Shown here: positions 1,806-64,000 of the stretch, piece after piece
Layout: the number at the start of each line of letters is the position of its first letter
How positions within the stretch are numbered: the first letter of the stretch is position 1
Assembly (NCBI GenBank): GCA_950295325.1
Contig: OX485807.1
Coordinates: 51,634,796-51,698,795, forward strand
DNA: 64,000 nucleotides
Source: Polytrichum commune
Taxonomy: Eukaryota > Streptophyta > Polytrichopsida > Polytrichales > Polytrichaceae
Direction: 5' to 3'
Notes under the pieces: generated by a model
The model's input: only the letters and a program-made list of their open reading frames with translations
Databases searched by the model: none
What the model was told of the DNA's origin: nothing
Position numbers and translations under genes: made by a program

Positions 1806-4385
1806 ATAAAATCATTTGATATTGTGACATATTGTTTTTATTTCTTGAATTTCATTCTCTTTAAATTGAATTTGAAATTGAGAAATCGTTAAAATGGCCC
1901 AGTACATGTTGGAGTGTGTTGGTTTTGGTCATGGTAATGATAGGAATGTTTCACATGCAAATTCATATACAATAAAATGAAATTATACACGATTCTATAA
2001 CGATGTGCTGAATGTGTCTAATACCCTGCCAAGTTATTAGACACATTAAGCACAACATTATAAAATCTTGCACAACTCTCAAACCCGGAGCCCTAAGTTT
2101 GTGAATTTTTTTGTATAGTTGCTACATCAAGGAAGCTTGGATTTTGGAAGTTTTTATGGTCATTTGATATTGTGACATATTTTTTTTATTTTTTGAATTT
2201 TATTCTCTTTAAATTGAATTTGAAATTGAGAAATCGTTAAAGTGGTCCAGTACATGTTGGAGTGTGTTGGTTTTGGTCATGGTAATGATAGGAATGTTTC
2301 ATGTGCAAATTCATATATAATAAAATGAAATTAGAGACGATTCTATAAGGATGTGCTTAATGTGTCTAATACCTTGCCAAGGTATTAGACACATTAAGCA
2401 TAACATTATAAAATCTTGCACAACTCTCATACCTCGAGGCCTAAGTTTGTGAATTTTTTTTGTATAGTTGCTACATCAAGGAAGGTTGGATTTTGGAAGT
2501 TTTTATGGTTATTTGATATTGTGACATATTGTTTTTAATTTTTTAATTTTATTCTCTTTAAATTGAATTTGAAATTGAGATATCGTTGAAGTGGTCCAGT
2601 ACATGTTGGAGTGTGTTGGTTTTGGTCATGGTAATGATAGGAATGTTTCACATGCAAATTCATATACAATAAAATGAAATTATAAACGATTGTATAAGGA
2701 TGTGACTAATGTGTCTAATACCCTGCCAAGGTATTAGACACAATAAGCACAACATTATAAAATCTTGCACAACTCTCATACCTCGAGGCCTAAGTTTGTG
2801 AAATGTTTTTGTATAGTTCCTACATCAAGGAAGCTTGGATTTTGGAAGTTTTTATGGTCATTTGATATTGTGACATATTGTTTTTATTTTTTGAATTTTA
2901 TTCTCTTTGAATTGAATTTGAAATTGAGAAATCGTTAAAGTGGTCCAGTACATGTTGGAGTGTGTTGGTTTTGGTCATGGTAATGATAGGAATGTTTCAC
3001 ATGCAAATTCATATACAATAAAATGAAATTAGAGACGATTCTATAAGGATGTGCTTAATGTGTCTAATACCTTGCCAAGGCATTAGACACATTAAGCATA
3101 ACATTATAAAATCTTGCACAACTCTCATACCTCGAGGCCTAAGTTTGTGAATTTTTTTTGTATAGTTGCTACATCAAGGAAGGTTGGATTTTGGAAGCTT
3201 TTATGGTCATTTGATATTGTGACATATTGTTTTTAATTTTTTAATTTTATTCTCTTTAAATTGAATTTGAAATTGAGATATCGTTGAAGTGGTCCAGTAC
3301 ATGTTGGAGTGTGTTGGTTTTGGTCATGGTAATGATAGGAATGTTTCACATGCAAATTCATATACAATAAAATGAAATTATAGACGATTGTATAAGGATG
3401 TGACTAATGTGTCTAATACCCTGCCAAGGTATTAGACACATTAAGCACAACATTATAAAATCTTGCACAACTCTCATACCTCGAGGCCTAAGTTTGTGAA
3501 TTTTTTTTGTATAGTTCCTACATCAAGGAAACTTGGATTTTGGAAGTTTTTATGGTCATTTGATATTGTGACATATTGTTTTTATTTTTTGAATTTTATT
3601 CTCTTTGAATTGAATTTGAAATTGAGAAATCGTTAAAGTGGTCCAGTACATGTTGGAGTGTGTTGGTTTTGGTCATGGTAATGATAGGAATGTTTCACAT
3701 GCAAATTCATATACAATAAAATGAAATTAGAGACGATTCTATAAGGATGTGCTTAATGTGTCTAATACCTTGCCAAGGCATTAGACACATTAAGCATAAC
3801 ATTATAAAATCTTGCACAACTCTCATACCTCGAGGCCTAAGTTTGTGAATTTTTTTTGTATAGTTGCTACATCAAGGAAGGTTGGATTTTGGAAGCTTTT
3901 ATGGTCATTTGATATTGTGACATATTGTTTTTAATTTTTTTAATTTTATTCTCTTTAAACTGAATTTGAAATTGAGAAATCGTTAAAGTGGCCCAGTACA
4001 TGTTGGAGTGTATTGGTTTTGGTCATGGTAATGATAGGAATGTTTCACATGCAAATTCATATACAATAAAATGAAATTATAGACGATTGTATAAGGATGT
4101 GACTAATGTGTCTAATACCCTGCCAAGGTATTAGACACATTAAGCACAACATTATAAAATCTTGCACAACTCTCATACGTCGAGGCCTAAGTTTGTGAAT
4201 TTTTTTTGTATAGTTGCTACATCAAGAAAGTTTGGATTTTGGAAGTTTTTATGGTCATTTGATATTGTGACATATTGTTTTTATTGTTTTTATTTTTATT
4301 CTCCTTAAATTCAATTTCAAATCGAGAAATTGTTAAAATGGTCTAGTACATTTTGGAGAGTGCTGGTTTTGGTCATGGTAATGAA
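1806..4385. repeat. 349-bp satellite array, dimeric higher-order repeat
   Basis: The marker CATTTGATATTGTGACAT recurs at 1813, 2161, 2510, 2859, 3208, 3557, 3906 and 4256, a period of 348-350 bp. Two monomer types alternate. Type A (2161, 2859, 3557) has GTGCTTAATG and CGATTCT; type B (2510, 3208, 3906) has GTGACTAATG and CGATTGT. The real unit is therefore a 698-bp A-B dimer repeated three times. The outer monomers are more diverged and the last is partial. Each monomer holds a long inverted repeat; in the 2161 unit 2355-2375 pairs perfectly with 2379-2399 around a 3-base loop. No reading frame spans the units. Edge divergence fits unequal crossing-over inside the array. Confidence 0.93.
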
Positions 4386-47361: not shown

Positions 47362-48559
47362 GCTGAATTGATGATGAACCTAAGCAATATAATTAGCAAT
47401 TTACGATGAAGACTCTCGTGCACTTCAAATGGCCCTATGGCAAAGACCAAGGTTCGCATGTACAATCTCAAATGCATCCCGGTCCACGTGAGAATGTTTA
47501 TTTGTATGTGCCAGACCACAGAATGTTTTTAGGCTCCAAAGTGTCAATTGAGTATCATACGTGGGTCCGGCTTCTCCCTTTTAATAAAACACTAACAACA
47601 GTACGATGATGAACTCTCACTAGCATAACATTGTATAAGTTGCCTTCCTTTGTGATGGAAGTGAGACACAAATTACTTCAATTATTTAACAAAAACGCCA
47701 TGTGTTGTTGCTCTATTAGTCGGAAACCGTACAAAATCCCACGTGTCATTTCAAAAAGTTAGCATTTCAGCACCAAAGTGCCGAACCTACTTAGGACATG
47801 TTGTAGTGTTGGGCTTGCAAAATGCTTGCCTCATAAAGTGGTGTTTTGTGGGGGGGGGGGGGGGGGAAGAACTCATGTTCATATGGGACATAACATTACT
47901 ACTTCATATTTGTCATGGTGTTTTGTCATTACTAGGATTACTAAGCAGTTTTTGTTACACTTGTAGTCTAAAGTTATAAACATGATGGGCAAGGACTCGT
48001 GGCATCCGTGTAAGTAGGCAACATTGAAGCCCATGACAATAAGGACTACAACCCCAATCTAGGTTAGAATCCCTAGTTTAATATAGCGAGATTGAGAAGC
48101 GTCCATGAAATTATGGGGGGATAGGGCCTCTAACATGGAATCCTAAGCCAATTGTCGTGGACCTACACAACTTTGTAGCAATTAAAATGCACCGCCCATC
48201 AAAGGCCATGGTTTGGTCTTAGTGACCACACTCCATCGTATTCTCGCATCAATATGAGCTACACTCAATGTTTACACACGATGATAGTGTGCATGGTTGA
48301 TGAGGAGAAGATGGAAAAGTTTGTTAGGGAAACACTTTGCAAGAAACAATTGTGTAAGCTATTGTGTGGTAAAATGGAATAGACTTGCTACACTCTAGAC
48401 GATATTGACCACTTCAAGCCCGGTGTTTACATTAGGTGCTTCTATCTTAAATATAAGATAGGAACTATAATGAACAATCCTCTACAATACCCATAAGTCA
48501 TGGTACCCTAGAAACAAAACACTTTGCTTAAACACTTTGTAGAGACACCCTCATTGTAC
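47362..48559. other. intergenic DNA left of the retrotransposon
   Basis: No gene was recognised. A run of 17 G at 47850-47866 lies within it. Confidence 0.5.
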
Positions 48560-48718
48560 TGTAGGAAAAGTAACTAGTGATCGCCGAAACAGCGAAGGAG
48601 AGAAGGTCGAAACAGAGAGAGAGCGAGCAAGCGGAGCGACACCGGGTGAAGCAGGTGAGAGCGAGGCTGTTCTGGAGCCTCGAAGAGCAAGTGGAAATGG
48701 GGCCGTCCCAGTCACGGG

Positions 48719-48850
48719 AAGGCGAGCTGGCGGACTAGCCACGGGAGCCACGTAACCAGCAAAAGGGAGGCGAGCTGGCGGACCGGCCAAGGGAGCCACG
48801 TAACTAGCAAGAGGAGGACGAGCTGGCGAACAAACCGGGCAGGTCTAGGC
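48719..48850. repeat. ~60-bp tandem repeats near the LTR start
   Basis: Two to three units of the form CGAGCTGGCGGAC-[AG]GCC-GGGAGCCACGTAAC-AGCAA. GC-rich compared with the surroundings. Confidence 0.75.
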
Positions 48851-49189
48851 CGAGCTGGCGGGTGAACCAGGTCACTAGTGAGGGCCAACGGACAATCTGA
48901 TTAAGGGCCGGGCTTAGGGCCAGTATTTATATGGCCGAAGTAGCTAGGTAAATGGGAACAAGACCATTTTAAGAACTAAGGAGGCACGGTCCTATTCCCG
49001 CTTAGAGCACATGTCAATTAAGTAGCTTAGGTGATATGAAGAGATATGTAATTAGGTATTACATGTTGGACTTAATAGATTTAAACTCTACGAATTAAAG
49101 ACTTTTAATCAGGCTATTATTAGACACGTTGCTAAATTTAGCCGAGCTAACATTTACAAAAATCCTAGGAAAACGTAGATTTGTGAGAC

Positions 49190-49198
49190 TATATAAGG
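49190..49198 (+). promoter_or_regulatory. TATA box of the inferred LTR promoter
   Basis: TATATAAGG in a good plant context. About 100 bases downstream the putative transcript enters the mini-hairpin array. Confidence 0.5.
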
Positions 49199-49295
49199 AG
49201 GCCACTTGAGGGCCCTAATACACTTCATTTCATCCCGAACATTTTACATGAGTGTCCGGACCTCGGACTTTGTTGAGACGTGAGGAAATCCAAAG

Positions 49296-49540
49296 GCACC
49301 CACGGTGCATTGGAATTACCTATAAGCACCCGAGGTGCTTTGGCAATTCCAATTGGACTTTTAGGCACCCGAGGTGCGTTAGGAAATTCATAGGCGCCCG
49401 AGGCGCATTAGGAAATTCATAGGCACCCGAGGCGCATTAGGAAATTCATAGGCGCCCGAGGCGCATTAGGAATTCCATAGGCACCCACGGTGCATTGGAA
49501 TTACATAGAGGCGCCCGCGGTGCCTTAGTAATTCCAATTG
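49296..49540 (+). repeat. array of eight GC mini-hairpins in the LTR
   Basis: About 29-39-bp units, each with a 5-bp stem around a 3-base loop (GCACC-CGA-GGTGC type) followed by TTAGGAAATTCATAG-like spacer. Stems vary between GCACC/GGTGC and GCGCC/GGCGC: six units pair perfectly, one has G-U, one A-C. Lies just downstream of the TATA box. Confidence 0.8.
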
Positions 49541-51136
49541 GATTGGCGGAGCGAACTTGGTACGTCGGGAGATTTTTAGCGTACCGCGGCGCATTCGCGA
49601 GAGCAAGACATTCACCACGGTTAGCGGAGCGAGCTCACAAAGTGTTATCACGCAACATGCGAGATTGAGAATCCGTGCAAGGAGTTGAAGACTTAGTAAA
49701 TCAAGATTATGGAGGAGGCCGCATAACGGAGAAATTTGGAGTATGCGGGATTTTCAAAAGACCTTAGGAAAGTGAACACCATATTCACCTAAGAAAACAA
49801 TTAAGAAAATTATCTTATATGAAAAATGATTGGAAAGGATTGAGAATGAATGTAGCAACACTTGAGCTTAAAAGGAATACTACACACCTAAAACATTATT
49901 CGTACTTGGCAAGAGGTTGAGGCAAGAGGATCTAAGCTAAGAAAACCAAATCACCTAGGTAGTGCTCATTGATGGAAAAGGTGATGATGCCTCAAGCCGA
50001 AGCTTGTCACCTTAGCATAAGTTCACATCATTACCTTTCACGCCATTGGATTTGAGGCACCGAGATTAGTTTGCTTGAGAGGACTTGATAAGACTAATCA
50101 AATCATAAAGCAAGCAAAGGATTGGAACCAAAGGTGGCCGAGATGTGGCCTCGTCATCAAAATCCCCTACCTTAGCACTTAGGGATTTTGGCGGCCTAAG
50201 AGAATATTCTGGGGATTTAGCCGGCCTTAGTCAAATATTTGGAATCTTCTAAGGAGTAGCAATTATGTGCTAAGCCTTAGAGATTTGGCTCGAGAGCATA
50301 CACTTATAAATTACGGAATGTAAAAGGGAGTTTTAATTATGCCAAAGTATCTTCCACGCGCTAGGTTGTCTTGACTTAGCGAGGGAGTATGCTAACTTAT
50401 GAAGGTATTTAGGCAACGTGTTTGAAGACTTGAACGGAATAGAGATTATTGCATTGGAATCTAAAGGAATGAATAAGTATCCTATATAAGATTATAAATC
50501 GATAGGATATAAATTCAAAACGTGAAAGATATTGTGGGTAGAAGAATTTAGATGGTTTCAAATTACGAGAGTTATAAACTTGAAATATGTTTTAGATGAA
50601 TTCAACCATGAAAGATATGGTATGAGGATGTTTCTCTCGAGGAAACACTTAACCTTGACATTACACGTTTGAGAAACATTAACTTAAGGTCTAAGGTACC
50701 TATCCATTTAAGAGATTATTTAAAAGGAACTACATACTGAGAGATATTGTAGAAGTGTTCTCGTTAAGGGCACTTTCGGGGAACATAAACTTGACAACTT
50801 GGACACTTTATCCCTAGGGATTTATAAAAGGGTCTTGAACACAATATTCTTGATTAAGAAAAGCATTGTGTTACTAAATCTATTTAAAGGTTTAGGAACA
50901 CCAAACCTTGACATTAGATTCAGGGAAACATAAGTCTTAGACCAACTACTCTTAGAGAGTTTATAAGGATATTGGAACTGCATGTTACGGAATTGAGATA
51001 CAGAAGAATGCAAACACCTTCACGAGACTTAGAGAAGAGAAGATCTAATTTTGGTGGGAGTAACTTCCATGTAAACCGGTTCAGCAGCGGGTTACACCGT
51101 CTAAGGCTGGAAGGTTGAAGGTGGCCCTCCACATTT

Positions 51137-51154
51137 TGGCGACCATGCTGGGGA
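51137..51154 (+). other. primer-binding site
   Basis: TGGCGACCATGCTGGGGA resembles the TGGCGACTCTGCTGGGGA-type tRNA-complementary sites common in plant gypsy elements. It starts with TGG, the complement of the tRNA CCA end. Confidence 0.7.
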
Positions 51155-51800: not shown

Positions 51801-54484
51801 AGGGAAAGGGATTGAGCAAACAGGTTAGGTTCTGAAGCGGAAACAATGGAACTGTAAGCAAACAGTTTAGCAATTAAGTCAACATAATGGGACGATACTA
51901 TTAAGTATTAACATTACAAGAGAAACCACTTGATTAGATACACATCAGAAGCCAATTGAAGCAAAGCAAAGGATAGCAGCTTTAAACAAACAGAATGGGA
52001 CTAAGCTAAGAAAGCAGTTTATGAGAAGCTACAAAACAGGATTAGCAATGGAACAAGCAAATTAACAGCCGAAGGAGAAACAATCTATAAGTAGCCGCAA
52101 GAACAGATTAGCAGCAAAGCAAGCAGGTTAGCAGAGAAGGAGCGACACAGCTGCAGAGGGGGCATTAAGGGAAAAGCTGCAGAGGAGGCATTAAGGGGAA
52201 GCTACAGAGGAGGGAGCGACCTCGACCTCAACCTCGACCCGACCTCGGCCACGGAATTAGGACCAGCACGGAATCACGGGGTCTTACGCGCGGTTACAGG
52301 CTTCTCTTCGCCATGAGATTAGGGCTACCAGAGCTTAAGGAGAAGTTTAGGATTACAGACTATTTAAAGACCTAATTATGTAGCACATAGAAATTAGGAT
52401 TTTGTGATAAAAGATTATGAGATATGGAATATAAGCTTTATGGACAAAAGGATTACAAGAGGATATATATATATACTGGGTATTTAGAACATATATAGGA
52501 TTTTGTCAAAACAACTATGAAGAAGGATATCAAGGATCAACGATTATGATGAGAGGCATTATGACGGAGCATATAGGAATGTGGCATTTTAAAAGAATAT
52601 GATTACGGAACATATTAGAAAGGCATTATGAAAGTATATAGGACAAGGAAGGATTCTACTAGTATGAATGAATCGAATGGAAGATTGATTTGATCCTCAA
52701 AGGGAATTGGGATGTAACCACATTGAGGATACAATAGAATCTTGAAAATACAAACATTAGGAAGGAAGAACGGTTATAACCGTTTAGGATAAGAATCATC
52801 TACATATGTCATAGATAGATGATGATCTAGGAAGACGAAGATTTACAACCACTCTTAGTATAGATTTTGGATAGGAAGAAAAGACTATATAAGGGAAGCA
52901 TTTTAGGAGACCTATACCTCATTTTCTACACAACGAAGTTATCTTAAATTTGAGTGTCAAGAATCACTTGAAGCTTTTGTAACTCTCTTCTCGAGGAACT
53001 TTTGCAATACACTTATCTTTTCTACAAATGCGTGTGACCTTTCTACCTCTCTCTCAAATTGTCTTACAAAGTTTGTCAAGCGGTACTTGGAACTTGAGTG
53101 ATTGAGCAACCGAGAGTAGAGTAGATTGAATAGACTCTTTTGAGAAAGAACTCAAAAGATAGTGTGAGGGTGAGAACAAAGCGCTCAAGACATTTTGGAG
53201 AATCAATGGAACTTTGAGAAAGATCGATTTGAGAAAGCAATTAGCAATTTATACAACTTGAGTGAAGGAAGCAAGATTATCTCTCAAAGCGGAACTTATC
53301 ATTGATCTCCTCAAAAGGGAATTATAAATATACATGTGATTGAATACTTGAAGAATTATAATGCATGAATGATTAAAGTGAAACCTCTTAACAAATACAA
53401 ACTCCTTCAAAAGAGGAGGAACTTATTATTATAACTACATAATCGACTTATAAATATTACACATATTATACTACATATTGATTGTTGAACTTATGATTGA
53501 CAAGAATGATAAAGACATTAATTCATATCAAAGTTTGAATACATATGAATGAAGTAATATTGATATAAGATAATCTACTTATACAATTGTTATTGAAGTT
53601 TCTTACTTTAAGATTCTTTGTGAGTTGTTGGATGTCATTACAATTTGAAGGATTACCTATTTAAGAGAAGATCTCTCTCTCTCTCTTGAGCAAAACTCAA
53701 GAGAGATAGGTTTATTTCTCATCATCAAGAAACACTTTGAAGTTAAACGTGACATTGCAAAACAATCAATGATGTGTTCATGAAATTATAACTACTATAT
53801 GCATATATGTTAAGTTACAATATTATAAGTAGTAACACTTGAGCTACAAAAGGAAGACTCAAGAATATTAGATCTTCTTCATCATTATAAGATTACTTTC
53901 ATTTGTGTGATTGATGTTTATGAACTACAAAACTTAAGGATTCATACAACTTATTAAAACTATATTGTTATTACGCATATTATACACCTCTTGAAACATT
54001 CTCTAAATCTAACGGTTCTTATTATCGATGATGCCTTACTTTGATAGTGAGAATTAAGATAATGAGATTGTGTTCACTCCAATAATATATTCATATCATA
54101 AGGAGAAGAGAGGGATTGTTAATTCGGGAGCCGAGCATATTAATGAGGCACGGTAGTTCTCAAGCGAATACAAATTTACGTGATGTGCATCGTGAGTCTT
54201 CTTAGCTAATCTTGCAAAGGAACGACCCACGGCGTCCATCACAAGCAAGAAGGGTTGTTATACAATTTGTATGTTAAGAAGATATTCTTACCTCTATATG
54301 GTGGTTTGAACGGTAGGGTGGGAAAACAGGAGTCCGACTAGAAGCAATACAAAAATAAACAAGGCAAGGAGAACTTAACTCCAAGTGAATCATCCATAGG
54401 CAAACATGTAAAGTACGGATGCATTGAGGCGTCAGTGCTGGAGGCCGGCCAAGACATGATCCCGAAACACTCTCAGTAGCGTAC
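51801..54484. other. long untranslated leader with a second TATA-like and primer-site-like signal
   Basis: Purine-rich and AT-rich, no credible gene. TATATAAGG recurs at 52886-52894, and 54426-54444 resembles the primer-binding site (13 of about 17 positions) but lacks the clean TGG start. Either this is leader sequence of one giant element or it contains a diverged second LTR whose internal region starts at gag. Confidence 0.45.
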
Positions 54485-57400
54485 ATGGTTGACCATGAGG
54501 ACACATCTAGCACGAGAAGCACATCACCAACCCCAAGGGAACAAGAAGCAGAGCGGAGGCATGTGGAGCGCATGCACTTCGGAGATAGTTCCGTGAGACG
54601 GAACAAACAACAGAAGAAAGAAAGAGAAGAGAGGTACGCGAGGCGTACACGTCAGAGAACTACAGGAGAAGAAGAAAATAGAAATGCTTCTGAGCCACCG
54701 GCAGTAGGTTCCCACACCACCAAACCTATCCACCAAAGGAGTCGAAGTGAAGGAGGAGGTAACGATAAAACATACAAAGAAACGGGCACAACGGAGAACA
54801 ACCCAACTCAAGAAGAAAGCGAAGACGAAGATGACTTGATAATAGGTACCCCTCTTGGGACCTATGTGCTAAGAACAAAAGGTACAGGTGAAACCACCGG
54901 GACGAATACCCCAGGGAGTGGGGTGCAGGATAAGGGTAAAACGACCAGGGAGGACCTTTTCACCCAAAGGAATTGGGAGGGATTGAAAAGGAATTTTGAC
55001 GAACAATTCAGTTACGAGGACTCCGGCTTCTCCGGAGGAAGCACGCAAAACAACACGAACAAGGAAGTGAAGAAACCTATCAGTCAAGAGGAATTTGACG
55101 AATTAAGGAGGAAGTTTGAAGAGAGACTCAGGCAATTCCAAAACCTTGGAATTAACCCCGGAGTCAGCCCACCACCAGCCAACAACAACACAGTACCAAG
55201 TTTTGGAAACAAGCCATCTAACCCGGCCAACATGGCCGCTCAACCACGGAGAACTAAGGTTCCCTTACCAACCTTTAAGGGTAAGACCGATCCAGATACT
55301 TACATGCAGGAGTTTAACAATGTTTGTCTTGCCAACCAGGAAGACACCGATGCGATCAAGCTACAATTATTTCCAGTTACTTTAAAGAAGCGGGCACTAG
55401 AGTGGTATTCCCAATTTGGCCCACACCATTTTCCAGATTGGCCCTCCTTGGAAGCTGCCTTTCTGATGAGATTTAGATCCAAGAAATCGGAGGGAGAAGT
55501 GATTGAGAGTCTAGGATCCCTCAAGCAGAAGAAAGATGAAACAGTTGAAGAATTTTACGAAAGGGTTATGGTGGAATCATCGAAGATAAATCCCCAGCCC
55601 AGCAATCAATTCAAGAAGGCATGGTTTCTTAACGGCCTTAAGAAGGAGTATGCCAAACATATTGATCTCATGCCGACCAATGACTTAGACGAAGCGAAGG
55701 CCTCAGCTCGGAAATTGGAGCTAGGTCAAATGAGGAAAGGAAGATTCCTCGATGAAAATGACAGCGACGACTCAAGCGACGACTCGGAAGAAGAGCGCAA
55801 GAAAAAGAAGAGAAAGTCAAAGGGTAAGAGAAACGACTCTACCAAAGACGACATAAAAACCCTTAGGGAAGAGATTGAAGGACTAGCTCTAGGGAGCAGG
55901 AAATTTCGAACAGGCATCATCTGCCGGAGATGCCGAAATGAAGGACACTACGTGCAGGAGTGTCAGATGAAGCAGTGCACCAACTGCAATAGCCTAACGC
56001 ATAACACAAATGAATGTGTCTATGAACGGCACGAATCTCGGAGACCCCGAGAGAGGAGATATGGGGTAAATCAAGTGCAACCCCAAACCAATCGAAGGCC
56101 AGGAGCGATAACTCCTAGGCGAGACATGAATGATCGAAGGGTTCGGTTTGAACCAAGGATTGAGTTTAGAAGAGAAGAGAGATCCCCTTATAGGGAAGGC
56201 GATTACCGGCGGGAGGCGGGAGGCCCCTACCGGGGAAATGAATATCGCAGAGATGATCGGCCTTATTACAGGCCCAATGACAACTACAGGAATGATTTCA
56301 GAAGGGAAGGATATTCCCCTTACAAGACCCAAGATTTCCGGAGGGAAGATGGATACCCCTACCGAGGAGGCCCCAGAGGACCTATTAACCATGACAGGTA
56401 TGAGTATACCAGAAGCCTGATGGATAGTAACAACACCAAGGCAGCGCCGAGAACTGGGTTCACTGGCGGACCACAGCGAGATGGCAACCCCGACGAGTGT
56501 TTTTATTGTCATCAGAAGGGGCACTGGAAGCCGGATTGTCCGCACTTTATTAAACACCAACAGGAGTTGAGTGGATTTAGAAACACGAAGCCGGCAGTAG
56601 GAGCCAATGTGGTGTCCCCTGCGGTGTGTGTGATGACGAGAGCCCAGCGGGCTGCAGCCGAGGAAGGCAAGGAGGATAGTGAAAGTGATGACAGTGATGA
56701 CGATGAATCGAGTAGTGGCAGCTCGGAGGAGCAGGAAGACCACCAAAAGAGAGAGGAGAACTCTGAAGATGAAAGGGATGACGCGTTCGAGGATAACGAA
56801 TGCAACAAAGTGATTGAAGAAAGGCCGATAGGGGCCAACAGTGAAGAATGGAAAGCGGATAGGGAAGTGCACCGGGAGGTGAGTAAGACCATCCATGAGA
56901 TACAGGAGGAAGAGGGCGAAGCTCTACCCACGCCAGAGGAGTTCGCACCTTGGTACCCAGAAAAGGAAGAGGCAGAGAAGCCCACGGAACGGAGCCCCGA
57001 GGAAGGAGGCGTCCCAACAGCTACCCAGGCAAGGGTAGATAAGATCTTGGAGAGTGTGATGAATCACACGAAAGCAAACATATCAATCGGACAGTTACTG
57101 GAGATAGCCCCTTATTGCAAGAAGCGGATAATGGCGGCGTTAACACATGAGGAGAAGTCGAAAGAACCGACTCAAACCTATCAAGTTACAACAAAGGCAT
57201 TTGATGAAGAAATGCCCATGATATCCGTAATTGTGAAGAATAGGCAAGTACCAAACGCCTTGATCGATGGTGGTTCAGGAGTGAACATCATCACGGACAC
57301 GTTAAGAAGGAAATTGGGACTCAAGAAGATAGAGCCCGCACCATTCACCATAAAAATGGCAGACCAAAGGAAGGTCATGCCCAAAGGAATTATCCGGGAC

Positions 57401-57751
57401 ATACGCCTTGATGTTGGCGGGATTGTGATCCGGACGACACTCACCGTTATAGACATGGTGAGTACTGAAGACAGTTACTCCCTATTATTGGGAAGACCGT
57501 GGTTGAAGGAGGCTCAAGCCCAACATGACTGGCCCCTCAACAAACTAACCTTGACCCAAGGAGGGAACAAGGTGGAAGTAAGCACCCGGAGAACGCCAGC
57601 GCTATCCCCTGCAAAGAGACCTTTGCACTGGGAAGATTACGACTGGGAGATGGGACTATCGGATGAGGAAGAAACCATAGTCTATGAGGCCTTCCCTGAA
57701 CTACTCCCCATGGGAGATTTCGACTTAAAAAGCTTGAGGAAGTTAAAATGA
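54485..57751 (+). CDS. gag-protease polyprotein of the gypsy element
   Basis: 1088 codons from the ATG at 54485. Residues about 1-250 are polar and disordered. About 255-420 is a retrotransposon gag domain (LPTFKGKTDPDTYMQEF, AL-WYSQF, F-MRFRSKKSEGEV, DETVEEFYERV). Three CCHC zinc knuckles of C-x2-C-x4-H-x4-C spacing lie at about 479, 497 and 671, separated by an Arg/Tyr-rich repeat region. An acidic stretch follows (about 725-790). The aspartic protease has its catalytic ALIDGGSGVNII near 926 and YSLLLGRPWL near 1000. The frame ends at TGA 57749-57751, but the same frame continues into pol, so this stop probably replaced a sense codon. Gag builds the particle and the protease cuts the polyprotein. 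Confidence 0.9.
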   Translation: MVDHEDTSSTRSTSPTPREQEAERRHVERMHFGDSSVRRNKQQKKEREERYARRTRQRTTGEEENRNASEPPAVGSHTTKPIHQRSRSEGGGNDKTYKETGTTENNPTQEESEDEDDLIIGTPLGTYVLRTKGTGETTGTNTPGSGVQDKGKTTREDLFTQRNWEGLKRNFDEQFSYEDSGFSGGSTQNNTNKEVKKPISQEEFDELRRKFEERLRQFQNLGINPGVSPPPANNNTVPSFGNKPSNPANMAAQPRRTKVPLPTFKGKTDPDTYMQEFNNVCLANQEDTDAIKLQLFPVTLKKRALEWYSQFGPHHFPDWPSLEAAFLMRFRSKKSEGEVIESLGSLKQKKDETVEEFYERVMVESSKINPQPSNQFKKAWFLNGLKKEYAKHIDLMPTNDLDEAKASARKLELGQMRKGRFLDENDSDDSSDDSEEERKKKKRKSKGKRNDSTKDDIKTLREEIEGLALGSRKFRTGIICRRCRNEGHYVQECQMKQCTNCNSLTHNTNECVYERHESRRPRERRYGVNQVQPQTNRRPGAITPRRDMNDRRVRFEPRIEFRREERSPYREGDYRREAGGPYRGNEYRRDDRPYYRPNDNYRNDFRREGYSPYKTQDFRREDGYPYRGGPRGPINHDRYEYTRSLMDSNNTKAAPRTGFTGGPQRDGNPDECFYCHQKGHWKPDCPHFIKHQQELSGFRNTKPAVGANVVSPAVCVMTRAQRAAAEEGKEDSESDDSDDDESSSGSSEEQEDHQKREENSEDERDDAFEDNECNKVIEERPIGANSEEWKADREVHREVSKTIHEIQEEEGEALPTPEEFAPWYPEKEEAEKPTERSPEEGGVPTATQARVDKILESVMNHTKANISIGQLLEIAPYCKKRIMAALTHEEKSKEPTQTYQVTTKAFDEEMPMISVIVKNRQVPNALIDGGSGVNIITDTLRRKLGLKKIEPAPFTIKMADQRKVMPKGIIRDIRLDVGGIVIRTTLTVIDMVSTEDSYSLLLGRPWLKEAQAQHDWPLNKLTLTQGGNKVEVSTRRTPALSPAKRPLHWEDYDWEMGLSDEEETIVYEAFPELLPMGDFDLKSLRKLK

Positions 57752-59707
57752 CCAAGTTGCAATACAATGGAGATTTCTACCATCAGAACACCTACCTCAC
57801 AAGGAGGTAAATCCGAGAAACCCCGGTTGAGGAAAGCGACCAAGAAAGAACAAGAGGCTATGGAGGAGAAACCTGTATATCCCTCCTAGTTTTACAAGGC
57901 AAAAGAAGGAGACATAATAGTGGACCGTACCCCTGCCTCAGAGGCTGTCAAAGGGAAGAAGATAGCCGGATGGACGGTTGAAGATGAAGACTTGGTCAAA
58001 AACTTGAACTTAGGTGCTCCGGAGGATCCTAAGTTAGTCAAGATAGCCAAGGATTTGGGTGACTACGAAGCACAAGTAAAAGAACTCTTATTGAGATTTA
58101 AGGACGTGTTCGCCTTTACGTACAAAGATATGAAGGGAATACCTCCGTACATGTGCGAACACAAGATCGAGTTGCAGCCTGAGGCCAAGCCTGTAAGGCA
58201 AATGCGCTATAGGATGAATCCCAATTATGCCGCCAAAGTCAAGGAAGAAATTGACAAATACTTGGAGGCATGATTCATATACCCCGTTGACAAAACGGAA
58301 TGGTTATCACCAATCGTGATTGTGCCCAAGAAGAATGGGAAATTACGAGTGTGCGTCGACTACCGCAAGCTCAACGCAGTCACCAAGGTAGATCCTTTTC
58401 CTCTACCTTTTACGGAATCAATCTTGGAAGCGGTTGCAGGACACGAAATGTATACGTTGATGGACGGGTACAGCGGCTACAACCAAATCATGATCGCGCT
58501 GGAAGACCAGCTAAAAACCTCTTTCATCACCAAATATGGAGCATTCGCATACCGAGTGATGCCCTTTGGATTAATGTGCGCACCAGCCACCTTCCAAAGG
58601 GGTATGATGAAGATCTTTGCCGATTACCTTGACAAATTTATGAAGGTTTTTCTAGATGACTTTACCGTATATGGCACCAAGGAAGACCATATTGAGCACT
58701 TGGAGAAGTGTCTCATTAAATGCCGCGAGAATGGAGTGAGCTTGAACCCGGAGAAATGTTATTTCTGTGTAAACTCCGGGAGGCTCCTTGGGCATGTAGT
58801 GTGCAAGGAAGGATTGTTGGTGGACCCTAAGAAGGTGGGAGTCATAAAAGAATTACCCCCACCAACCACAGTACGGGGAATCCGAAGTTTCTTGGGACAA
58901 GCCACTTACCATCGCAAATTCATATGGATATATGCGGATATCACTCGGCCCTTGTACTTATTGCTCAAGAAAGGAGAAAAGTACATTTGGACCAAGTCTT
59001 GTCAGGAGGCCTTTGAGGAAGTAAAGAAAAGGCTCACGACCACACCCATTCTCATAACCCCTAATTGGACAATGGACTTCCACGTACACTGTGACGCGTC
59101 CAACATAGCTATTGGAGCCGTTTTGGCCCAAAACATACATGGAGATAGAGATTCTCCAATTCATTATGCAAGCCGACTTTTGAACAGTGCTGAGAAGAAC
59201 TACAGCACAACGGAGCGCGAAGCTCTAGCAATGATTTATTCGGTGGGCAAATTTCGGCATTACCTACTAGCCAACCATTTTGTCTTCTACGTGGACCATC
59301 AAACGTTGATATACTTGGTCAATAGACCAGTAGTATCCGGGCGTATTGCGAGATGGATGCTTTTGCTTCAAGAATACGACTTTGAAGTGATCTACAAACC
59401 CGGTAGAAGCCATGTCATGGCTGACCACTTATCCAGAATTGAAAGTGGGGAGGAACCCTCAGGGGTGCAAGATCAATTCCCGGATGCGAGTCTATTCATG
59501 GTACATGTGCAACCTTTCGAAGATTGGCGAGCATCATTTATCGAGTACCTTACACACGGAAAACTATTATCCGCACTCGCTACCCCGGAAGAACAGACAA
59601 AAATTAGACAGCTGAGTGAACCATTCGTTCTGGACGATGAAAAGCTCATGCGGGTCAGTATCTCCGGCAAAATACATGAATGCATAGCCGGGGACATCAT
59701 CGAATAA
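57752..59707 (+). pseudogene. pol: reverse transcriptase and RNase H, in frame with gag but broken by stops
   Basis: Same frame as gag-protease, with stops at 57887 (TAG), 58271 (TGA) and 59705 (TAA). The intact stretch 58316-59707 holds the RT: SPIVIVPKKNGKLRVCVDYRKLN, DGYSGYNQI, MPFGLMCAPATFQR, the catalytic FLDD motif near 58647 and LLGHVV. RNase H follows with DASNIAIGAVLAQ, the E of TEREALAM and the D of VDHQTL. The TGA at 58271 sits between a KYLEA and an FIYPV motif where relatives carry glycine. These residues copy RNA into DNA and remove the template strand. No frameshift is seen. Confidence 0.88.
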
Positions 59708-62700
59708 ATTATAAGTGAAGCTCATAAACAAGACGGAGTGCATTACAATTTGTCTACTACATGGCAATATGTATTACGCACACCTTATTGGTGGCCTACA
59801 CGGCGAAGAGACGTACTGGAATACTGTGATGAATGCCCAGTATGTAAAATGTCAGACCAAGGTGACTTAACTGGGGAACCCACCCCACATGACTCCGAGG
59901 ACGACGATGACCCACTGCCTGTCAAACCTTTGGAGGCACAAGAGGACATGAATGGGAAAGCGGAACCATATTGGACAACTCCCTATGTCCAATATCTAAC
60001 CTGTCAAACGTACGGGACCCCATGGGTAAGTTCCCTACCCCTGGAAGAAAGGAAATTGCTTGCTTACCGCAGTCGATTCTTCATACTCAAGGAAGGGGAA
60101 TTACATCGCATGTTTCACAACGGCATCATAAAGAAATGTGTACCTGGAAGGTATGTGAGGAGTTACATCAAGACCCTCCATATAAAGGAAAATCGGCATT
60201 TCTCGATAAACGCCACCAGGCAACTGGTGCTGCAGGGCCCTTATTGGTGGCCAACCATAGCGGAGGATGTTTTACTACTCATCACGTTATGCACTGAATG
60301 CAAAGGACAGGGAGAAGAGTTACCAACACAAGGAAGCTCTTCACAACCTAATCAAGAGACAGAGATAATACCCTACAAAGAAACCTTCAATGATTGGAGA
60401 ACACCCCTGGTTGAATACATGACACGGGAAAAGTTCAAGATGGACATGGAGACTCAAAGAAAGCAACAAGAGCTCATACGAGAAAGTGAGGTTTTCACAT
60501 TGGAGAAAGGAAAACTCCAAAAATTAGAGAAGAACGGAATGGCGAAGATATGCATTGCGGATTACCAAATCAAGCATTACATAGGAAAAATGCATGTCTA
60601 TCGAAAAACGCACCTAAACGATCAACACACCTGGCTACGATGTTTACAAGGGAACCGGTGGTGGCCCACGATGGGGCTAAGTGATATACAATTCTACATT
60701 GAGTATGATTGTCGATCCTGTTGAGAGCGATTTACAGGCCCATATCATAACATAATTTGCGGGTCCATTGCCGCACAACCACAAGACAACAAGGATTGGA
60801 GGAGGTTATTGATAGAATACCTCACCTACGGGTACCTTAAGGGGCCCCACATCTCGAAGGGACAACACAAGAAGATTGCCCGCCAGAGCCAAGAATACTT
60901 CATCGAAGAAGGCAAATTAAAACGAATACTATCAAACGGTGAGATCAAGATATGTATCGCCGGACATGAGGTAAACAAATACCTACAAGAATTACATGTC
61001 ACGGACACAAGAAAACATCTTAGCATGGAAACCACATGGCACCTGTCCATGTTTGGGCCATATTGGTGGCCCACGTGCGGGTCCGACATCAAGAACTTAT
61101 GCAACGGGAAATGCCCGGTTTGCAACAACCAAGTCGGGCTTGCAACAAAAAAAGAAACACAAACACTTCTAGGTGAGAAGAGCCTAGATTGGAGACGTCC
61201 ATATTTGGAGTACCTGACATGCGGAAAAATCTTTGACCAAGCCTTACCACCAGAGGTGAGGAGAGCGGTGGAGCAAAGCCATAAGCATTTTGTGTTCACC
61301 AACGGTGCTTTGCAACGGATACGCAAAGGAGGGAAGAGTAACCAAATGTGTATACCAGAGACTCAAGTACCTGCGTACTTAGCTAAGATTCATGGACAAA
61401 GCATGCCCCATTTGGCAGCCATAGAAACTTGGAAGGTTGTAGCCACCGGGGCGTATTGGTGGCCAACCACTAGTAGAAAATTCTGCGTCCGGATCAACAG
61501 AAAGGCGTTGGTCGCGGTTGTTACTTAGGACGCGTTGACCTGGACATGATGTAACACAATTTTGTTGATTTTTTCTGTTGATATGGTCACAAAAAGATTT
61601 TATTTTAAACTTATTTTTTTATTTTGTATATATATATATATATATATAACATTAAAAAATCAAAAATAAATAAATGGCAGATCGAAATTCCTAACCCCTC
61701 CCAAATAACCCTCAACCTATACCACGTCTACAAGTATAGACTACCTACCACTCACCTAGGTGTCAAGGCCAAGGCCAAAGGTGTCGGCCACGGGAATCGA
61801 ACCTTGCACCTAGTGACACCCACACATGTGCCTTAACCACTAGGTCATCACATCACACATGATATAAATGGAGTGTTTTAAACCTTTCAAGAATAAGGCC
61901 ACTATTTTCTCTTTACAACCTACTTGATGTATATAATTACAGTAATTATATACAGTATATATTTACTGTAAATATATACAGTATATATTTACTGTAAATA
62001 TATACAGTATATATTTACTGTAAATATATAATATATATAAATACAGTAAATATATACTGTATATAATTACTGTAAATATATACTGTATATAATTACTGTA
62101 ATTATATACTGTATATAATTACAGTATATATTTACTGTAAATATATAATATATATAAATACAGTAAATATATACTGTATATAATTACAGTAAATATTTAC
62201 TGTATATATTTACTGTAAATATATACTATATATAAATACAGTAAATATATACTGTATATATTTACTGTAAATGTATACATATTTATATATTTACTGTAAA
62301 TGTATACATATTTATATATTATATATTATATACATATATATTATATACATACATGTTACATATATTGTATACATATATGTTATATATATTATATACATAC
62401 ATATTATATACACATATATAATATACATATATATTATATACATATATATTATATACATATATATTATATATATATTATATATATATATATATAATATACA
62501 TACATATTCTATACAAACATATTCTATACATACATATTCTATACAAACATATTATATACATACATATTATATACATATATATATATATATATGATATGTT
62601 ACATATATTATATACATATTATACATATACATATTTATTCATATACATATTTATATTTATATATTTATATATTTATATATTTATATATTTATATATTTAT

Positions 62701-64000
62701 ATATTTATATATTTATATATTTATATATTTATATATTTATATATTTATATATTTATATATTTATATATTTATATATTTATATATTTATATATTTATATAT
62801 TTATATATTTATATATTTATATATTTATATATTTATATATTTATATATTTATATATTTATATATTTATATATTTATATATTTATATATTTATATATTTAT
62901 ATATTTATATATTTATATATTTATATATTTATATATTTATATATTTATATATTTATATATTTATATATTTATATATAAAAAAATATTAACTATCAACTAA
63001 TATAATATTTATAATATTTACGCACCTTTGAGTTCGTAATTATTTCCATACCCATACACTTACAAGTCCATAAATTGCAAAAAATTAAAAATATTTTACA
63101 ATATTCCAATAGATCCTAGAATATTCCAAAAAGATTCCATATTTACTAAAAATTTGTTGATTTGGTCATTGTACTATTCTAATCAACAAAAATGTAGGCA
63201 GTAAACTGTTGATTTTTACAAAAATTCAAAAATCAGTGAAATCGGTCATTGCAGTGCCCGGATCGACAAAGATCTGTTGATTTTTTGTTGATTTGGTCAT
63301 GATTTTCTAGTAGTGTTAACGTGGGGACATGACGTATGCAACTACCTAAAGCACTGTGATAGTTGTAGAGGAACAGAGACCAAGACAAAACACCCCGAGG
63401 AAAGTCAAAGCACGGCGCTCCCAGAAACAATATCCGAGCCGGATTGGAGGCACTCAGTCATACAACGACTGGAAAGCTTTGAAGATTGGAACCTTATTGA
63501 CACCCATGAAAATGTGGGATTACTTGACCCCAACGCTGAAATATATTTCATAACCAAGGATGGTTTGAAGTATCAATTACCCGATGGTGAAGTGAAAATG
63601 TGTATCACAAAAGGAGACGCCGTCGATTGGGTAAAGAGGGTACACGAATATCAAGTACCACACTTGACTGCGGAAGAAACAACCGCTCAAGTACACGAAG
63701 GCCCGTATTGGTGGCCAACTATCTCTCTAGACGTGAAACGTTTAGTTGACGAATGCCATATATGTCAGCTCGGGACAACGTTAAGCTTCCGAGCTGCGAA
63801 GTATGGAACCATCCCATTCAGAAGAGGTGAAGCACCGGATTGGCGAGAACCAATCATACAACACCTAAAACACCCAATGGAATTAAGTGAACTAGTATTC
63901 CAAGAAGAGTTGGGGATATTGAAAGAGGAAATACCTGATTATTTCCTGGAAGAAGATATATTGAGCCGAAGGTTAAATGGAGACATCAAATTGTGTATAT
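59522..64000 (+). CDS. tandem array of at least seven pre-integrase HHCC zinc-binding modules
   Basis: Each unit of about 393-435 nt starts with a DWR-like motif (59522, about 59971 as YWTTP, 60392, 60794, 61187, 63442, 63838). It then has an EYLT-G block, an FxxxxGKL-R segment, an ICI-like strand, a zinc pair H-x5/6-H, WWPT (59789, 60245, 60659, 61064, 61457, 63709; split in unit 5) and C-x2-C (59834, 60290, 60710, 61112, 63355, 63754). In ordinary plant gypsy elements this segment is present once, between RNase H and the integrase core, and its HHCC domain helps bind DNA ends. Six copies are complete with all ligands; the seventh is cut by the window edge. A TGA at 60722 follows unit 3. The frame is shared with pol until the CACTA insertion and resumes exactly when that insert is subtracted. 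Linkers between units vary in length. No DDE core is seen. Confidence 0.85.
61655..61855 (-). mobile_element. tRNA-derived SINE-like segment inside the CACTA element
   Basis: Minus strand: A-box-like GACCTAGTGGTTAAGG (61831-61846) and B-box GGTTCGATTCCC (61792-61803), then a body ending in an A/T-rich tail. The body differs from the SINE at 18150, so it is another family. Confidence 0.6.
61921..62640. repeat. TATATTTACTGTAAATATA-type palindromic AT repeats
   Basis: ACAGTA/TACTGT palindromic units repeat with periods near 20-28 bp to about 62300. Degenerate TATATTATATACATA runs follow. All long frames here are low-complexity artefacts. Confidence 0.9.
62652..62975. repeat. (ATTTATAT)n octanucleotide satellite, about 40 copies
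   Basis: Practically uninterrupted 8-bp period across about 320 bases inside the CACTA element. Translation gives only an Ile/Tyr/Leu/Phe repeat, which is not a gene. Confidence 0.95.

Follow-up and report, generated by a model that had tools for sequence, protein, structure and literature searches.

A Ty3/gypsy retrotransposon family of Polytrichum commune carrying a tandemly duplicated integrase N-terminal module

The window analyzed in this work is a stretch of 64,000 nucleotides from Polytrichum commune (NCBI GenBank assembly GCA_950295325.1, contig OX485807.1, positions 51,634,796 to 51,698,795 of the forward strand), and a 24.7-kb Ty3/gypsy retrotransposon, which starts at position 48538, lies mostly inside it. 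Integrase normally has a small zinc-binding head once. In the window copy of this element, eight tandem head-to-tail units were found between RNase H and the DDE core, each consisting of an integrase N-terminal extension and an HHCC zinc domain, and this copy is a young insertion of a Ty3/gypsy family with a tandemly duplicated integrase N-terminal module. In this family, named family A, the added units were differentiated by position with a ratio of nonsynonymous to synonymous substitution rates (dN/dS) well below 1, and in several copies an uninterrupted long gag-pol frame runs through the array. The anatomy of the array and the selection on it are regarded as close to certain. The best explanation of the whole is that the module was duplicated in tandem, was kept by selection and acts as an arm of the integrase, and the chances of this being right or wrong are judged about equal. 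The genome searched comprised 408 Mb in 64 contigs, seven of them large; all findings come from this one genome, and the counts of genome matches are lower bounds.

Unit array in the window copy

A first-pass annotation, made from the letters of the window, had described six complete zinc-binding modules followed by a partial seventh, with every zinc ligand kept in the complete ones. The same arrangement was found at 59516-64000, on the forward (+) strand. Unit 1 (59516..59845) has the N-terminal extension plus HHCC and an in-frame stop inside it at 59705, and is followed by unit 2 (59960..60301). Unit 3 (60386..60721), with an in-frame stop directly after it at 60722, was placed by motif, tree and ligand test, and unit 4 (60788..61123) follows. 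Unit 5 lies in two parts, the first up to WWPT (61181..61467) and the last with C-x2-C (63318..63366), and unit 6 spans 63436..63765. The H-x5/6-H, WWPT and C-x2-C motifs were kept in all six complete units. Unit 7 (63832-64158, + strand) is cut by the window end at 64000 and is complete in locus L009. When the sequence was extended past 64000, as the annotation had proposed, the array ended at unit 8 (64222-64554 in window numbering, which is continued for the downstream parts of the element; outside the window, + strand), giving a total of eight units. Unit 8 is canonical (HEGIAGGH, YWWPT, CDIC) and runs directly into the rve/DDE core.

The units were scored one by one against PF17921, for which the cut-off is 25.5 bits. 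The scores were 38.0 bits for the zinc half of unit 1, 28.8 for unit 2, 24.5 for unit 4 (29.7 within a longer piece), 31.6 for unit 6, 29.1 for unit 7 and 58.5 for unit 8, and unit 3 alone and the first part of unit 5 alone gave no match. The array had been staked on this family matching more than one unit, and several were matched. A profile built from window units 2, 3, 4 and 6 and parts of 5 and 7, with units 1 and 8 left out, matched residues 30-102 of prototype foamy virus (PFV) integrase at 7e-4, the next match, an unrelated one, being at 0.72. AlphaFold models were made from window sequences alone for unit 4 (predicted local distance difference test score, pLDDT, 89.3; predicted template modelling score, pTM, 0.77) and, of moderate quality, for unit 6 (pLDDT 75.3, pTM 0.61). 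In Foldseek searches, PFV and Ty3 integrase filled the first 11 places for the unit 4 model (best E 2.4e-3), and the N-terminus of murine leukemia virus (MLV) integrase took the first 2 places for the unit 6 model (best E 0.047). The units are predicted to have the fold of the PFV, MLV and Ty3 integrase N-terminus, at E-values that are modest. Chance motif matches as the source of the units were ruled out by the PF17921, profile and model matches.

Unit 5 is split by a CACTA-like insertion (61468..63315, no strand assigned), which accounts for the gap in the array and contains the AT-rich repeats of that stretch. Its ends, CACTAGTAGAAAA and TTTTCTAGTAGTG, are CACTA terminal inverted repeats of 13 bp with one mismatch; the insert is short and AT-rich with tandem repeats inside, and its flanks both read AAC, the right one with two additional bases. 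Five other copies were compared at this site: the uninterrupted sequence GGCCAACGTGGGG was present in L014, L016, L018 and L019, and L021 had the same with one base change.

Copies of family A and their open frames

A search with the integrase core listed 150 places, 39 at 89-100% identity (family A), 29 at 71-84% (its sister family, B) and 82 at 47-57%. With the DNA of unit 4, at least 40 genome matches of 74-100% identity were obtained, window copy included, and 30 of them were taken as loci of 3.3-3.4 kb (L013-L042, L013 being the window copy). Arrays of varying divergence were spread over numerous sites, with every one of the seven large contigs represented, and the notion that it is an artefact of the assembly can hardly be entertained. 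In 7 of the 30 loci (L018, L019, L021, L022, L026, L027 and L039) the whole locus was one open frame of 1114-1123 amino acids. Locus L021 was read in three adjacent pieces, open in matching frames, including an upstream piece of 6 kb that was open from gag as far as the beginning of unit 3 in a first block, and a downstream piece of 2 kb, open for 537 amino acids, with the end of unit 8, the core and the C-terminus. The open frame at L021 amounted to 3716 amino acids, and four other places had frames of 3652, 3306, 3264 and 3264 amino acids.

The element at L021 has 11 units in the order 1-2-3-1-2-3-4-5-6-7-8. RNase H joined unit 1 directly in 22 of the 30 loci (8-unit type), a copy of unit 3 stood ahead of unit 1 in four (L014, L015, L021 and L039), and the remaining four were undecided; these types are assigned labels, since only some copies were read end to end and L021 is the one 11-unit copy read fully. 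Among 150 listed matches of unit 2, at least eight elements had two type-2 units about 1.25 kb apart and none had three. The peptide ASLFMVHVQPF follows RNase H and recurs where the second block begins in the four loci showing that junction, as expected from one clean block duplication. Separately, some array elements lay 13-28 kb apart in pairs whose match scores were equal (C5:27.13/27.15 Mb, C3:53.51/53.54 Mb and C5:13.22/13.24 Mb); these are possibly local duplications or nested insertions.

Selection and zinc-ligand retention

The dN/dS was determined by NG86 on 11 pairs of open family-A copies, among which 9 diverged pairs at eight positions gave 72 cells. A value between 0.04 and 0.46 was obtained in 63 usable cells covering all eight positions, with 59 not exceeding 0.25 after rounding; these values are rough, for dS was often above 1 and then unreliable, and 9 of the 72 cells had no value, which also tells against a firm reading. 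Four cells exceeded 0.25: two with 0.26 and 0.28, and two from the less diverged pair L021-L022, unit 5 with 0.46 and unit 6 with 0.34. The near-identical pair L026-L027 had 0.08 overall and 0.50 at unit 7. As a yardstick, the window copy compared with L043/L021 had 0.023 in reverse transcriptase (RT)-RNase H (RH) and 0.103 in gag-protease (PR), and units 2, 3, 4 and 6 in the same comparison had 0.19, 0.11, 0.14 and 0.18. All four ligands were kept in 28/28, 27/27, 22/26, 26/30, 26/29, 25/28 and 26/27 family-A units at positions 1 to 7, in total in 180 of 195 fully covered units in the 30 loci, a count that excludes 7 partly covered and 8 absent unit-locus cases; the HHCC set is characteristic of the added units. 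The array as a private decay product of a single copy was ruled out by the open copies and the low dN/dS.

The array might also be a by-product of slippage or template switching in reverse transcription, that is, a tolerated spacer that itself does little or nothing. The copy number does change as a clean block, 23 of the 30 loci were not open throughout, and some ligands were lost. Against it stand the dN/dS of 0.04-0.46 in the 63 usable cells of diverged open copies at all eight positions, which strongly disfavours a spacer, the ligand sets kept in 180 of the 195 units, and the order and spacing of units, which were stable between diverged copies. A mere spacer is judged very improbable. The first-pass annotation had supposed that the module was amplified and then held under constraint, and this is well supported by the recurrence of the array in many copies, its orthologous positions, the low dN/dS per position, the intact frames and the one-unit relatives outside families A and B. 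Paralogues with a single module, which it had named as fatal to the idea, were found among more distant elements, whereas paralogues of the same family carry the array.

Family B, single-unit relatives and growth of the array

In family B, five units were found between RNase H and the core in all three loci read (L045, L046 and L047). Each of these loci has an in-frame stop ahead of or inside unit 1, L046 has another at unit 4, and one in-frame stop, located before unit 1, is common to L046 and L047. The nearest relatives outside A and B among the listed places (54-57% core identity) had one unit in all three loci read (L048-L050), and so did a neighbouring element in L011/L012 (53% core identity).

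In a tree of 54 unit sequences, in which long branches were flagged, positions 1 to 7 each formed one clade (bootstrap 97-100). The first unit of family B grouped with unit 1 (97/87) and the fifth with unit 8 and the single units (100/99); less surely, the fourth grouped with units 6 and 7 (88/89) and the third with unit 5 (94/78), and the second was placed with no single position. Families of this one genome have 1, 5, 8 or 11 units, and the original unit still adjoins the DDE core. The trees and counts together suggest that growth would have run from 1 to 5 to 8 to 11, with some loss of units in family B conceivable. Two outside collections were searched, one viral and one prokaryotic, and negatives there say little about plants: in the viral contig collection the unit 4-5 piece had no relatives and unit 8 with the core gave 5 pattern stretches, 0 confirmed, and in the prokaryotic genome collection the unit 4-5 piece gave 11 pattern stretches, 0 confirmed.

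Proposed function of the array

Net charge was measured unit by unit in a number of copies. It was -3 to -9 at unit 1, +1 to +5 at unit 2, +4 to +12 at unit 3, +1 to +5 at unit 4, +2 to +6 at unit 5, -4 to -10 at unit 6, 0 to -9 at unit 7 and +2 at the one unit 8 measured. Because net charge varies by position, a uniform DNA-binding string is unlikely, and a mixed arm is more plausible. In the favoured reading, an arm mechanism whose chances are put somewhat below even, the array would remain part of the integrase chain and form an arm N-terminal to the catalytic domain, and one chain would thereby bring several N-terminal domains. Contacts with viral or target nucleic acid (DNA or RNA) may be made by the basic units 2-5, and contacts with proteins by the acidic units 1, 6 and 7, so that the arm would do within one chain the work of the extra integrase subunits in larger retroviral intasomes. 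According to the accessible parts of two reports, N-terminal domains are exchanged between chains in retroviral intasomes (PMC6784120, PMC9065133), and in a 16-subunit lentiviral intasome many chains contribute N-terminal domains that contact DNA and protein (PMC9065133). A broader and still more tentative proposal is that of a polyvalent integrase, in which one chain would encode eight to eleven N-terminal domains, specialised in a graded series, that replace accessory integrase subunits; the arm would lengthen as blocks of several units are duplicated whole in reverse transcription, and valency would be an evolving family trait.

Several results weigh against a selected integrase arm. No Foldseek match for the unit 4 or unit 6 model had an E of 0.001 or better, and units 1, 6 and 7 are mostly acidic, which speaks against uniform DNA binding. 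That the array stays attached to integrase is a supposition. The window copy itself is broken by an insertion and stops, none of the three family B loci read was open from RNase H to the core, and the seven open copies of family A include two near-identical pairs (L018/L019 and L026/L027), and in the former 5 changes gave an overall dN/dS of 1.08. Most added units have evolved more rapidly than RT or unit 8. The full ligand set was missing from 15 of the 195 family-A units, with all four ligands lost from unit 6 of L039 within an open frame, and in family B ligands were lost from unit 3 in 3/3 loci and from unit 4 in L045 (1/3). A constraint on the zinc fold alone, as had been proposed, does not fit entirely: 180 of the family-A units keep the full set, but L039 unit 6 and these family B units do not.

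The element protease could also cut out the array, which would then act on its own as a protein with many zinc domains, perhaps chaperoning nucleic acid or forming part of the particle structure. The junction peptide between RNase H and integrase, in family A mostly PDASLFMVHVQPF, recurs as ASLFMVHVQPF before the second block in the four loci showing it; as a protease site, which is a guess, it would release a three-unit piece in 11-unit copies. This junction reads SD(A/T)SLF or PDAELF in single-unit relatives and PDANLF in family B. In L018 the units are spaced by linkers of 21-44 residues, which also suits a released protein, but between units 7 and 8 of L018, the sole copy with linkers listed, there is no junction peptide, and the array would stay on integrase there if this were the only site. 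On balance, a separate protein is held to be unlikely. Less probable again is that host proteins dock on the units, each position serving a different partner, to tether the element to chromatin, direct target-site choice or evade silencing. The positions are strongly diverged from each other yet conserved across copies, and they differ in charge; for the maedi-visna virus intasome, multivalent binding of host factors by extra integrase chains is proposed in the accessible part of one report (PMC9065133). No partner is known, which counts against this reading.

Comparison with known integrases

The array family was compared with known systems. The single-unit Ty3/gypsy elements of P. commune (L048-L050; L011/L012) have the same order of RT, RH and integrase (IN), a similar RNase H-integrase junction, an HHCC and YWWPT unit and a DDE core; unlike the array family they have one unit, and their integrase core is 53-57% identical. 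PFV integrase, whose residues ~30-102 match the window units by profile and the unit 4 model by fold, carries one N-terminal unit per chain, in contrast to the 8-11 here. Ty3 integrase (PDB 7q5b) is matched by unit 8 and the core in sequence (2e-15) and by unit 4 in fold, and it is not known to have an array. According to a published domain list, PFV integrase comprises an N-terminal extension domain (NED), an N-terminal domain (NTD), a catalytic core domain (CCD) and a C-terminal domain (CTD) (PMC6784120). The maedi-visna 16-mer intasome also has many N-terminal domains in one complex, as far as its accessible description goes (PMC9065133), but these come from many separate chains, whereas several are encoded in one chain here. 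The giant Ogre/Burro gypsy elements are likewise large, and their long terminal repeats (LTRs) are of great length; the accessible portion of their description ascribes their size to LTRs, extra open reading frames or other added motifs and mentions no integrase-unit array (PMC6431247).

No description of such an array was found in a limited literature search, which is weak evidence of absence as subscription papers were largely outside its reach. The new part is the multiplied integrase N-terminus, and the element is otherwise Ty3/gypsy. Retroviral intasomes differ in the number of integrase chains needed, and the role of all the extra N-terminal domains is unclear; a lineage that multiplies this domain in one chain offers a natural experiment on this role, and the same genome harbours relatives with 1, 5, 8 and 11 units. 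The family also displays multi-unit block duplication inside a coding gene with the units still under purifying selection.

Host element and decay of the window copy

The main features that were tested, namely LTRs, target-site duplication (TSD) and gene order, assign the element to the Ty3/gypsy retrotransposons. The 5' LTR (48538..51133, + strand) is 2596 bp long with TG..CA ends, and the 3' LTR is at 70622-73217 in window numbering, outside the window; the paired LTRs are 99.8% alike, with 5 differences in 2596 sites, and the short TSD CACTT flanks both on their outer sides. A stretch resembling a primer-binding site, TGGCGACCATGCTGGGGA (51134..51154, + strand), directly follows the 5' LTR, as judged by reading, with no tRNA matched. 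The frame for gag, zinc knuckles and aspartic protease occupies 54428..57748 (+ strand; PF03732 above its cut-off, PF13975 and PF00098 below), and the linker, reverse transcriptase and RNase H occupy 57890..59515 (+ strand; PF00078, PF17917/PF17919). Gag with its zinc knuckles, protease, RT and RNase H share one reading frame, and the order is gag-PR-RT-RH-IN. Elements of this kind usually, though not by definition, have one integrase zinc domain in the stretch from RNase H to the DDE core; the window copy has eight. No Pfam match to a chromodomain was found up to E 1 in two C-terminal pieces after the integrase core.

The stops in the array frame that the first-pass annotation had reported were recovered among eight in-frame stops of the polyprotein frame (57749, 57887, 58271, 59705, 60722, 64297, 65203 and 65629). 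All eight precede about 66070, and the frame of the intact relative L044, which reads through 65629, ends in a similar place; besides the insertion, no frameshift was seen in the polyprotein frame (54428-66070). The two stops inside the array are absent from L015 and L016, and the second is absent from L014 as well. Given only 5 differences between the LTRs, most stops appear to predate the last transposition, which suggests that the window copy was moved by proteins of intact copies.

Other features

Two more open frames, of 422 and 513 amino acids, were observed between integrase and the 3' LTR, at the place of an env gene (L009 4620-7395, equal to 67825-70600 in window numbering). Neither had a Pfam family above its cut-off, and the 513-residue frame had weak matches of coiled-coil type. 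An Rfam scan of the whole window gave no match. Among four neighbouring frames, two were without a match, and eukaryote-type matches were to PF03407 and PHD. A tandem array with a 349-bp unit, 7.4 copies and 94% matches was located at 1812-4384 of the window.

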